Below are positions 7,083 through 34,203 of a DNA stretch of 41,276 nt, one piece after another. The stretch lies in contig JAUZOA010000043.1 of assembly GCA_030706685.1 (NCBI GenBank), forward strand, positions 1 through 41,276, read 5' to 3'. Position 1 is the first letter of the stretch, and each line of letters starts with the position of its first letter. Under the pieces are notes generated by a model. The model worked only from the letters and a program-made list of their open reading frames with translations, was not told the DNA's origin and did no database searches. Both the position numbers and the translations under genes were made by a program. This DNA is from Bacteroidota bacterium (GTDB lineage Bacteria; Bacteroidota; Bacteroidia; Chitinophagales; Chitinophagaceae).

Positions 7083-7110
7083 TTAACGTAGTCTGCAATA
7101 AAGAACTATA

Positions 7111-7145
7111 AACTGTCCCGCTATTGGCGGGACAGTTTTATTTTA
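7111..7145 (+). terminator. Intrinsic terminator after the SurA-like gene
   Basis: A perfect 11-bp stem AACTGTCCCGC (7111-7121) / GCGGGACAGTT (7127-7137) with loop TATTG is followed by TTATTTT. It is the clearest intrinsic terminator in the window. Confidence 0.85.
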
Positions 7146-30980: not shown

Positions 30981-32420
30981 TTATTGGTTTTTCAGTTTTA
31001 ATTGCAATATATCATCGGTTTGTTGCCATGTCAGTTTTTTGGCAACGATCCGTTTGTCTTTGTCAAGCAAATATACTGTAGGTAAAGTCTGTACATCGTA
31101 CAACTGCGAATAGCCGGGAATATTGGCATCCACTCTTGTTTTTTCATCTGCTTTGGAATAATACACGTTTGTCCAATCCTGCAAGTGATGGTCATTGATA
31201 AAACTCAGCCAGTCTTTTTTTGTGCCGCTGGTTTCTTTGGCAATAGCAAACATTTTTACCCCCGCCGCTTTCCATTTGGCCCGGTACATTGAGTCCAATA
31301 CAGGCAAAGCTTCCTGGCAATGACTGCAAGTAGGGTCCCAGAAACAAACGATGGTAAACCTTGATGTGTCAGTATACAGGGAAGTTATCTTTCCGGCTGT
31401 ATCGGGCAGGGCAATATTTTCTGCCGGATTGCCCATGATATTTGCCATCAGGCTGTAAGCCCTGTCCCTGATTACTTTCTCGCCTTGTGGTGTAAGCCAG
31501 CTATATTCCTTTTGAGAAAAATATTTTTGATATAAATGCACAAAGACCGCGTCTTCCCACATGTATTTTTGATTAAGATAGCGGTTCACGAATTTTACCA
31601 GCAGGAATTTTGTCATTTCTTCACTGATGCTGGCATAACCAAGCATCCAGTCCAGTTCGCTAATCACGGAATCCGGTTGCGGGTACACAAGGGTGTTAAA
31701 ATATTTATCCAGTCTTTCATCAAACAAAGAAGCAGGCGTGCGGGTAATACGGTCATCCCAGAAATTAATGCCATCCCAGTAATGGCTTTTAAAATAATGA
31801 TAAGCAAAGGCCGAATCATATTTTCCGCCGGGTTGTTTAGTGGCCGGGGGTACTTCCGGTTCTTCCATTAAATGAAGTAAAGTGCTTAGAATAGAAGTGG
31901 GGTTTTTGGCAATGATATTCTTCCGGTATGCGGCGATGATTGAATCTGTTTTTTTCAACTGGTTATTCCAGCGGGCGGAATCCCTGGACGTGGTGGACAT
32001 CGAAAGATTAGTCCTGGCAACGTCTATTTCCTTGCCCTTTTCCGCCATATATGACTGGTAAGTATTAAAAAGAAGATTGTCGGGAGAATTAATAAAGCTC
32101 TTTTCTTTCTTTACAGTGGCTGTATCGGCTACAACAGAAAAGTGTTGCTGTTTATCCAGCAGGATCTCGAAAAAATTATTTTTGGCAGGATAGACGATAA
32201 GATAAATGCCGCCGCCTAACTTTTTAGCGCCTTTGAATACGCCTTCGCTTTTATCATTCAGCTTTACCGAATCATCGATCGGGTACTGTTTGCCAGAATA
32301 ATGGCCAAGAAAGATATACTGATTCTTAAAAGGCTTGAGCGTGACCTTTATTTCGTAACCATTTTGGGCAAAAACGATAACAACCGCCAGTAAGAAGGGG
32401 ATCAATAACAATTTTTTCAT
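30981..32420 (-). CDS. Periplasmic thioredoxin-like protein with DUF4369-type N-terminus
   Basis: A 479-residue exported protein with signal peptide (MKKLLLIPFLLAVVIVFAQ). An N-terminal beta-rich domain of DUF4369 type (about 20-120, YEIKVTLKPFKNQYIFLGH) is followed by a helical middle (about 125-320) resembling DUF5106. A C-terminal AhpC-TSA/TlpA-like thioredoxin domain (about 335-475) has redox CxxC in DPTCSHCQEALPVLD and the cis-Pro in VQTLPTVYLLDKD. It is likely a disulfide reductase of the periplasm; the substrate is unknown. A near-consensus promoter TATCTTTA lies upstream, and the PPIase gene follows on the same strand. Confidence 0.88.
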   Translation of the reverse strand: MKKLLLIPFLLAVVIVFAQNGYEIKVTLKPFKNQYIFLGHYSGKQYPIDDSVKLNDKSEGVFKGAKKLGGGIYLIVYPAKNNFFEILLDKQQHFSVVADTATVKKEKSFINSPDNLLFNTYQSYMAEKGKEIDVARTNLSMSTTSRDSARWNNQLKKTDSIIAAYRKNIIAKNPTSILSTLLHLMEEPEVPPATKQPGGKYDSAFAYHYFKSHYWDGINFWDDRITRTPASLFDERLDKYFNTLVYPQPDSVISELDWMLGYASISEEMTKFLLVKFVNRYLNQKYMWEDAVFVHLYQKYFSQKEYSWLTPQGEKVIRDRAYSLMANIMGNPAENIALPDTAGKITSLYTDTSRFTIVCFWDPTCSHCQEALPVLDSMYRAKWKAAGVKMFAIAKETSGTKKDWLSFINDHHLQDWTNVYYSKADEKTRVDANIPGYSQLYDVQTLPTVYLLDKDKRIVAKKLTWQQTDDILQLKLKNQ

Positions 32421-32451
32421 GAGCCAGAATAATCAGGTAAAGATATTTAAA

Positions 32452-32603
32452 AGGTTGAAAAGGTTTAAGGGTTTAAGGTTTAAAGTTTTTTTAGTTCAAA
32501 AGACCTTTTTTCAGGGAAATTGGTTGCCAGGCCAGAGGTTAATCTTGCTATTTCCCCGTCTTTAGGATATTATGCCTGCCAGCAACCTTCAACCGTTAAA
32601 CCC
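32452..32603. repeat. GGTTTAA-word repeats and inverted partner before rlmD
   Basis: Tandem variants of GGTTTAA/GGTTGAA occupy 32452-32485, and an inverted counterpart CCTTCAACCGTTAAACCC lies at 32586-32603, next to the rlmD promoter box. The pairing is imperfect. The gap 32421-32616 contains nothing else recognisable. Confidence 0.5.
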
Positions 32604-32604
32604 A

Positions 32605-32612
32605 TAGCTTTG
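32605..32612 (+). promoter_or_regulatory. TAnnTTTG box abutting the rlmD start
   Basis: TAGCTTTG is separated from the GTG start at 32617 by only CGCC. No TTG is found at the usual spacing. It implies a leaderless message with a GTG start. Confidence 0.45.
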
Positions 32613-32616
32613 CGCC

Positions 32617-34137
32617 GTGAGAAGAAAAAAGAAAAACATAGTATTGGAAAAGCTGCTAATCGAGGATTATGCAGCCGAAGGAAGGTCACTGGCCCGGTGG
32701 CAGGGAAAGGTCGTATTCGTCGAAAGAACGGTTCCCGGGGATGTGGTGGATGTTTTTTTGTATAAAAATAAAAAAGACTGGGCCGAAGGCTACCCGCTTA
32801 CCTTTCATCAATTATCACCTGTAAGGGTTACCCCTTTTTGTAAGCACTTTGGCGATTGCGGCGGTTGCCAGTGGCAAATGGTGCCTTATGAGCAGCAACT
32901 ACAGTTCAAGCAAAAACAGGTGCAGGATGCTCTGCACCGTATTGGTAAGATTCCGCTCCCGGAACTGCTTCCCATCATAGGCGGCAGGAACGATCGCTAT
33001 TATCGTAACAAACTGGAATATACATTCGGTACCTACCGGTATGTTCCTGAAACTGAATTCAAAAAAGCCCCCCTAAATTCCCCCAAAGGGGGGACTTCCG
33101 GAGCCTCGGATAAGGCAGAATCCTTCGAATTATTGGAGTCTTCTGAAACCTCCTCCTTTGCAGGAGGTTTGGAGGAGGCCCGTGGGGCTGTCGGTTTTCA
33201 CGCCAAAGGACTTTTCGACAAAGTGGTCGATATCAAGCATTGTTATCTGCAGCCTGAACCATCTAACCAGATACGGGAAACTATCCGGGAATATGCGCTT
33301 GCCCATGGTTTGTCGTTTTATGATGTACGCCATCATACAGGGTTCCTGAGAAATGTACAATTAAGGATTTGTACCACGGGTGAAGTAATGGTGAATGTTA
33401 TCGTGGCGGAAGATGATACTAAAAAGACAGCACAATTGTTAGAGCACCTAAAGCAAACGGTACCTTCCATTACCGCTTTGCTTTATACTCTGAACACGAA
33501 AAAAAACGACAGCCTCTACGATCTGGAACCGGTTTTATATTCCGGCAAAAATTATGTTATTGAAAAACTGTCTCCTGGTCCCGGCGAAGAAGATTTTCAA
33601 TTCAAGATCGGGCCGAAATCTTTTTTTCAAACCAATACATACCAGGGAGAGCAATTGTATAAAATAGCCAGGGATTTTGCAGAACTTACCGGCAATGAAA
33701 TTGTATATGATCTTTATTGCGGTACAGGCAGCATTGGCATTTTTGTGAGTAAAAAAGCGAGGAAGGTTATTGGTGTGGAAATGATAGAAGCGGCGATCGG
33801 GGACGCCAGGGAAAATGCGGCTATGAATAACCTGCACACCGCCGAATTTTATGCCGGTGATGTGATTGATATATGCAATAATGAATTCTTTGCCGTACAC
33901 GGTCGGCCAGACGTGATCATTACTGATCCGCCAAGAGCCGGAATGCATGAAAAACTGGTGAGAAAGATATTGGAAATAGCCGCACCGGTGATAGTGTATG
34001 TAAGCTGCAACCCTGCGACACAGGCCCGTGACCTGAACTGGCTCGGTGAGAAATATGCCGTCACAAAAATTCAGCCGGTGGATATGTTTCCCCATACATT
34101 GCACATTGAAAATGTAGTGCAGTTGAAATTGAAATAA
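32617..34137 (+). CDS. rlmD: 23S rRNA (uracil-C5)-methyltransferase RlmD-type, with palindromic insertion
   Basis: A 506-residue TrmA/RlmD-family RNA m5U methyltransferase. It has an N-terminal TRAM domain (about 5-60), a 4Fe-4S cluster with Cys75, Cys81, Cys84 and Cys209 (CKHFGDCGGC; DIKHCYLQ), a SAM site VYDLYCGTGSIGIFVS, the DPPRAG motif, and nucleophile Cys464 in VSCNPATQARDL. RlmD (23S U1939) is the most likely target; RlmC-like specificity cannot be excluded. Residues about 149-189 are an insertion in the family's central domain, encoded by two GC-rich palindromes (33065-33097 and 33146-33178) and the stretch between. The start is GTG 32617, four bases after a TAnnTTTG box. Confidence 0.92.
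   Translation: MRRKKKNIVLEKLLIEDYAAEGRSLARWQGKVVFVERTVPGDVVDVFLYKNKKDWAEGYPLTFHQLSPVRVTPFCKHFGDCGGCQWQMVPYEQQLQFKQKQVQDALHRIGKIPLPELLPIIGGRNDRYYRNKLEYTFGTYRYVPETEFKKAPLNSPKGGTSGASDKAESFELLESSETSSFAGGLEEARGAVGFHAKGLFDKVVDIKHCYLQPEPSNQIRETIREYALAHGLSFYDVRHHTGFLRNVQLRICTTGEVMVNVIVAEDDTKKTAQLLEHLKQTVPSITALLYTLNTKKNDSLYDLEPVLYSGKNYVIEKLSPGPGEEDFQFKIGPKSFFQTNTYQGEQLYKIARDFAELTGNEIVYDLYCGTGSIGIFVSKKARKVIGVEMIEAAIGDARENAAMNNLHTAEFYAGDVIDICNNEFFAVHGRPDVIITDPPRAGMHEKLVRKILEIAAPVIVYVSCNPATQARDLNWLGEKYAVTKIQPVDMFPHTLHIENVVQLKLK
33065..33097. repeat. CCCCC-palindromic element inside rlmD, first half
   Basis: Nested inverted repeats: CCCCC(AAA)GGGGG in the centre-right and outer AAGCCCCCC / GGGGGGACTT. 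It is read in-frame as KAPLNSPKGGTS. Its composition contrasts sharply with the flanking coding sequence. Confidence 0.7.
33146..33178. repeat. AAACCTCCT-AGGAGGTTT palindromic element inside rlmD, second half
   Basis: A perfect 9-bp inverted repeat (33146-33154 and 33162-33170) followed by GGAGGAGG. It is read in-frame as ETSSFAGGLEEA. With 33065-33097 it brackets a 48-base spacer. Confidence 0.7.
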
Positions 34138-34191
34138 TGTCTTAACAAAAGTTATAATTCCTCCGGTTATATTAGTTTATATCATAACGGT

Positions 34192-34199
34192 TAAATTTG
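34192..34199 (+). promoter_or_regulatory. TAnnTTTG box abutting the first rhomboid gene
   Basis: TAAATTTG is separated from the ATG at 34204 by CAAA. No TTG is found at the usual spacing. Suggests a leaderless message. Confidence 0.5.
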
Positions 34200-34203
34200 C
34201 AAA

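Follow-up and report, generated by a model that had tools for sequence, protein, structure and literature searches.

We studied a palindromic insert in the rlmD gene of a Bacteroidota bacterium of the family Chitinophagaceae. The gene lies in a 41,276-nt stretch of DNA, called here the window; the genome it belongs to is designated G000 and the related genomes bear other G numbers. The insert is probably a nuclease-less, MITE-like copy belonging to a family of non-splicing, homing-like elements that sit in frame in their host genes, carry a DUF559 endonuclease, and would cleave DNA and move. The full element, found in this bacterial family, is organized as a palindrome, a DUF559 endonuclease and an inverted palindrome. 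The relevant features of the window are:

32617-34137, plus strand: rlmD, 23S rRNA (uracil-5-)-methyltransferase, host of the insert (GTG start, 506 aa, Pfam tRNA_U5-meth_tr)
33064-33106, minus strand: left palindromic unit, head inward (R1, 43.3 bits)
33080-33092: inner hairpin of the left unit (CCCCC-AAA-GGGGG), read from the sequence and partially matched by R1 on the other strand
33107-33136: spacer between the units, 30 nt, with no detectable DUF559-derived sequence
33137-33181, plus strand: right palindromic unit, encoding ESSETSSFAGGLEEA in the phase favoured genome-wide (R1, 54.2 bits)
33146-33170: main hairpin of the right unit (AAACCTCCTCCTTTGCAGGAGGTTT), from the hairpin scan (RNA fold z -2.48)
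33082-33174, plus strand: RlmD residues 156-186, predicted by AlphaFold2 to be a disordered loop that links helix 145-150 to strand 189-196

The rlmD reading frame was open throughout (32617-34137), with no internal stops. The in-frame insert, at about 33064-33181, measured about 118 bp and comprised two palindromic units of ~45 nt, inverted relative to each other and 30 nt apart; an earlier note made from the letters of this DNA had described a palindrome pair here. R1 is a covariance model of the unit built from 16 copies, both rlmD units included. From the alignments, the plan of the unit is roughly a head GAnTCTTCGAAAG, a stem CCTCCCCC-nnn-GGGGGAGG and a tail TTTGGAGGGGGCC. Stem pairs were kept in 89.8% of the cells over the 16 copies. 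Covariation in the stem was mixed: cells changed on both sides numbered 11 vs 3.4 in shuffled alignments (0 of 500 as high), and neither the number of covarying pairs (reached in 194 of 500 shuffles) nor the pair types (500 of 500) showed a rise.

Locally the insert stood out little. Folded as DNA, the whole of it was only moderately unusual (z -1.77), and as RNA the right and left units gave z values of -2.48 and -1.01. The composition break that the earlier note had reported was present and slight, with a GC content of 0.44-0.54 across the insert vs 0.39-0.52 in the 250 bases on each side. A default repeat search of 32400-34200 did not list the rlmD hairpins, and over 32900-33400 no Rfam family reached its gathering score, the one CRISPR-repeat match staying at 18.6 bits, below its gathering score of 50. 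What persuades is that copies are dispersed and that most homologues lack the segment (see below), rather than the local composition.

A phmmer search matched RlmD to RNA methyltransferases of known structure, RumA among them, and the best match fell into two stretches, one on each side of the insert. The AlphaFold2 model, made from the window protein and 38 relatives, had a mean pLDDT of 89, and the only segments of three or more residues below 50 were residues 1-3 and 156-186; judging from this model, the insert very probably forms a flexible surface loop. Its peptide gave no match to PDB sequences at E<=10.

Comparison of 110 RlmD loci, which include the window's own and represent 106 different proteins, showed that segment 149-189 is absent from most of them. 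Measured between fixed anchors at query residues 149 and 190, the loop had 13 residues in 44 loci and 8 in 29; it spanned 6-19 residues in 101 of the 110 and 25 or more in nine, and 40 in the window's RlmD, which bears out the view of the earlier note that the segment was inserted rather than native. We judged the palindromic insert to be present in eight of the 110 loci, five in addition to the window's by R1 and two more, degenerate, by eye (L039 and L128). Carriers were patchy on the RlmD tree, which required at least six changes, four of them made unavoidable by well-supported branches (95 or more). Within the genus of the window's bacterium, the rlmD doublet was present in G005 and G006 and absent in G003, and G004 had a longer loop with no clear palindrome. 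The insert of a further genome, G018, had a spacer resembling that of the window and different arms (by eye). The nearest empty sites were, by eye, too diverged to fix the insert boundaries or a target-site duplication.

Copies of the unit were dispersed through the window's genome, mostly inside genes. The R1 search of G000 gave 61 rows at E<=1, corresponding to at least 52 distinct places after nine partial rows were dropped, eight of them antisense to a better match; the true number may be higher, as 150 of 983 candidates were scored in the first look. ORFs of at least 120 aa contained 45 of the 52 copies, and 42 of these ORF copies were supported by Pfam. Nineteen of the 42 fell within the residues covered by one Pfam match; others were located between two domains or close to the N-terminus, and for the latter the real start codon may lie further downstream. 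One reading phase was common to 30 of the 33 copies on the same strand as their host (binomial p 8e-12), giving a peptide like ESSKASPxGGGLEGA, and the three off-phase copies were all within 30 residues of the first codon of the ORF. The nine opposite-strand copies were distributed 3/4/2 among the phases, with no clear bias. This strong frame bias argues that the inserts are translated, not spliced or bypassed. G, S, P and charged residues abound in the favoured peptide, and the unit consensus is, by eye, open in all reading frames.

Hosts with several copies in G000 were PurH (two), LeuRS (two), MetRS (two) and an alpha-2-macroglobulin-like gene (three matches); others were an MgsA-type ATPase (a doublet), an RsmF-type methyltransferase, a RibD-type protein and NADH dehydrogenase subunits. 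Five further pairs of units had the same -,+ order as in rlmD, with spacers of 27, 30, 30, 53 and 56 nt. Under stricter filters (E<=0.01), R1 matched 22 of 99 related genomes, all of them among the 60 of the same family, and none of the 39 outside it. The PurH unit at residue 117 recurred in G081 and was absent from most other PurH rows. Palindrome-type peptides other than R1 units were also seen, IPNPSPGGKGVG in the LeuRS of G000 (L355) and PLPSSPGGGRDG and SPISPSTGGGAP in its IcmF (L150), which suggests other unit families missed by R1.

The earlier note had likened the insert to Rickettsia palindromic elements (RPE), and the comparison proved apt as regards behaviour. In the available text of PMC2229807, RPE are palindromic inserts of ~105-146 bp fused in frame inside conserved protein genes; the rlmD insert, of about 118 bp, is likewise in frame and open in a conserved gene, and its unit has one favoured phase genome-wide. 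The likeness is one of behaviour, with no claim of descent: the rlmD insert comes from another phylum, is a doublet of inverted units, and belongs with a DUF559 endonuclease, an association that the same available text does not report for RPE.

DUF559 is a domain of Vsr-like PD-(D/E)XK nucleases, according to the accessible part of PMC12907096. A PF04480 search gave 111 matches in 46 of the 99 genomes; we analysed 86, the other 25 being nearly all weaker. Hairpins with a score of at least 11 were found within the 160-nt flanks on the left in 30 of the 86 loci, on the right in 36 (one of these a run of N) and on both sides in 20, and 2.4% of 494 shifted control windows reached this score. R1 gave 99 rows at the DUF559 loci, corresponding to 72 distinct places. 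Of the 49 distinct places within 120 nt of the domain, 39 had the head of the unit pointing inward (p 2e-5), and at 16 bits or more all 24 did so; at low scores, ten of the 49 pointed the opposite way, which counts against the reading preferred here. The domain adjoins a unit in the IcmF of G000 (Pfam) and lies between palindromes in the metG of a relative. Genomes of the family with R1 units had DUF559 in 19 of 22 cases vs 10 of 38 for those with none (Fisher p 9e-6), and the three remaining unit-bearing genomes gave no DUF559 match.

Roughly half of the DUF559 domains analysed (44 of 86) were in ORFs of at least 250 aa. Pfam was run on 43 DUF559-bearing ORFs at E<=1e-5, L273 sharing its ORF with L306. 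The in-frame hosts were LeuRS (14 domains), AroC, i.e., chorismate synthase (6), CinA (4, one cut by the end of a contig), IcmF (4, plus one elsewhere in an ORF with a MeaB domain), HsdR (3), MetRS (2), MetH (2), homocysteine methyltransferase (2), adenine deaminase (1) and an Eco57I-type methylase (1). A single Pfam match was interrupted by DUF559 in 14 cases, in AroC, MetRS, MetH, homocysteine methyltransferase, adenine deaminase and Eco57I. Four domains, those with an AA kinase, URO-D, M23 and an AAA protein, were N-terminal, C-terminal or unclear in position; instead of insertions, these may be fusions. The E, D, E-x-D and H positions of DUF559 were kept in 42-43 of the 43 in-frame copies and in all 42 stand-alone copies; from the PD-(D/E)XK assignment in the accessible part of PMC12907096, they would be the catalytic residues. 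Two of the HsdR ORFs, L298 (G090) and L270 (G081), carried DUF559 and GIY-YIG nuclease domains together.

Elements of this kind resemble inteins and intron-borne homing endonucleases in that the endonuclease frame is continuous with that of a conserved gene, the sites coincide between orthologues and the distribution is patchy. They differ from inteins in that no Hint or intein family was among the Pfam matches of the 43 ORFs scanned (E<=1e-5). Protein splicing is not expected, given this result and the lengths of the segments at LeuRS site 1, which between fixed anchors measured 161-249 residues with DUF559 and 29-61 with none. The EDxHD nucleases are a recognised homing family, according to the portion of PMC3943268 at hand; with DUF559 and the Vsr-like nucleases, they rank among the nearest described counterparts of these elements.

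On the DUF559 tree, which was built from a short alignment and left many forks unresolved, copies were grouped by host gene: ten groups required 14 changes vs 35.5 after shuffling (0 of 200 as low). IcmF and MetH copies formed single groups and those of AroC and CinA nearly so; copies in MetRS (metG), LeuRS site 2 (leuS2) and HsdR (hsdR) were not grouped by host. Site-specific homing lineages would produce this clustering, but so does vertical inheritance, which counts against the preferred reading.

The same site was found full, nuclease-less or empty in different genomes. The LeuRS comparison had 26 rows, corresponding to 21 of the 22 genomes searched (the fragment of G002 was omitted) and five more picked for carrying DUF559; some of the 22 had also been picked for DUF559. 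At LeuRS site 1 a DUF559-sized segment was present in 11 of the 26 rows and a palindrome-type peptide alone just in G000, the rest having no clear palindrome. Site 2 was full in G013 and G019 and held a palindrome-type peptide alone in G000, G005, G006 and G073. One LeuRS ORF of 1315 aa (L306/L360, contig C90 of G019) carried two DUF559 domains, at sites 1 and 2. In MetRS, site 246 was full in G006 (alignment) and G030 (Pfam ranges) and held a lone unit in G000; site 495 had units in either orientation in several genomes. LeuRS sites 1 and 2 and MetRS site 246 thus show the pattern typical of homing, i.e., an insertion at the same position in some orthologues and an empty site elsewhere; so does the nuclease-less rlmD insert, present in eight of 110 loci.

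The left end of the rlmD insert is shared with a full element. Its first 20 nt were identical to L305:1110-1129, the start of the full DUF559 element in cinA of the sister genome G003, and were read there in the same frame (KAPLNSP); in addition, 16 nt of the rlmD left end matched the right end of that cinA element, inverted. Ends in common with an autonomous element are a feature of MITEs, seen here in this exact 20-nt match and in the bracketing of DUF559 by R1 units. Internal sequence derived from the autonomous element, another such feature, was not found in the rlmD spacer: against the 86 DUF559 loci it gave just 11-12 nt matches (E 0.2-0.9), which counts against a DUF559 origin. We therefore call the insert MITE-like rather than a MITE.

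Under the reading preferred here, DUF559 would cleave alleles of its host gene that lack the element, and repair would then copy the element into the cut allele, i.e., homing. The palindromes may take part in movement or excision. Loss of the nuclease would leave a palindrome pair or a single palindrome, and such nuclease-less copies may also spread by means of a nuclease from another source; for nuclease-less doublets to spread, either a trans-acting nuclease or some other enzyme would be required. The host protein would be made with an extra domain from a full element or an extra flexible loop from a remnant, and a peptide rich in G, S, P and charged residues would let hosts tolerate the units at surface loops.

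We hold more tentatively, with belief and doubt nearly in balance, that these elements could represent a new class of selfish DNA. Such an element would consist of a Vsr-like endonuclease bounded by palindromes; it would home in frame and stay on as a translated domain of the host, with neither intron nor intein to excise it. The ends, open in every frame, would serve as built-in linkers, and the nuclease-less relics would keep supplying essential proteins with new peptide loops. Essential enzymes appear to tolerate endonuclease domains as insertions, the palindromic ends doubling as linkers. In the literature covered, consisting mostly of papers outside subscription, we recognised no report of palindrome-bounded or in-frame DUF559, or of such palindromes inside Bacteroidota genes. 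If the proposal is true, in-frame palindromic inserts gain a candidate driving enzyme, an explanation would be at hand for many unusual loops in the proteins of this family, and alleles of one gene that are full, nuclease-less or empty form natural sets for comparison and testing.

A different reading is that the units form a free palindromic family, RPE-like and unrelated to DUF559, both kinds of insert merely favouring the same permissive surface loops. The loops at the LeuRS, MetRS and RlmD sites do vary in length even when palindromes are absent, and DUF559 was seen neither in the rlmD spacer nor in rlmD itself among the matches listed: 378 of 394 genomes of the family were matched, and the longest ORF among the ~150 matches listed was 561 aa, with no DUF559-sized insert, which also counts against a DUF559 origin. 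Against this reading stand the fixed orientation of the palindromes around DUF559 (24 of 24 at 16 bits or more), the identity over 20 nt between the rlmD end and the end of a full element, and the co-occurrence of units and DUF559 across genomes, and we regard a free family as unlikely. The earlier note had proposed a distinct repeat of the Bacteroidota; such a repeat is indeed dispersed in this genome, and the rlmD insert is better read as a nuclease-less derivative of the DUF559 family than as a free-standing palindrome.

About as improbable is that the insert is a REPIN moved by a RAYT (TnpA_REP), its two inverted units being REP sequences mobilised by a Y1 HUH transposase. Two inverted palindromes with a short spacer fit the REPIN plan, and RAYT subclass 2.6 of the Bacteroidetes has on its flanks atypical secondary structures that recur at other places in the genome, both according to the consulted sections of PMC6006769. 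The rlmD pair and the five other G000 pairs in -,+ order resemble REPINs in being short, inverted, dispersed and separated by a small spacer. G000 also has two PF01797 matches, one over the cut-off. However, R1 found no unit at E<=10 beside either PF01797 gene (loci of ~3.2 kb, G000 alone), and the Y1 gene of L146 is bracketed by an inverted hairpin pair of its own, different in sequence; a RAYT as the driver is thereby weakened for this genome alone. R1 units bracket DUF559 instead and are mostly inside genes, whereas REPs are extragenic. The unit consensus also lacks, by eye, the GTAG or CGTC tags given for REPs in the part of PMC3733652 available.

That the segment is an old, native loop which RlmD has retained for some role in structure or at the mRNA level is very improbable and largely refuted, for although the doublet is not brand new (two members of the genus, G005 and G006, carry it, as does G018 with a related spacer) and the stem pairs are largely kept, the segment is absent in G003 of the same genus and from most of the 110 loci, has copies dispersed in dozens of unrelated genes, is disordered in the AlphaFold2 model and reaches no Rfam gathering score.

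Further palindromes were seen in the window and elsewhere in G000. The strongest in the window, at 7110-7138 (AAACTGTCCCGC...GCGGGACAGTTT), resembles L145:718-743, a palindrome adjoining a Y1 transposase-like gene at another place in G000, and possibly belongs to a separate, RAYT-linked repeat family. A second strong palindrome of the window is located at 807-832 (AGAAGGGAACG...CGTTCCCTTCT). On contig C180, the hairpin pair at L146:1189-1211 and 1982-2004 (CTCCTTAGTTTGTAACTAAGGAG) is inverted around a Y1_Tnp-like gene below the Pfam cut-off. On contig C154, a hairpin-bearing repeat is present in two copies 80 nt apart, at 46499 and 46579 (L031 and L032), near-identical where read.
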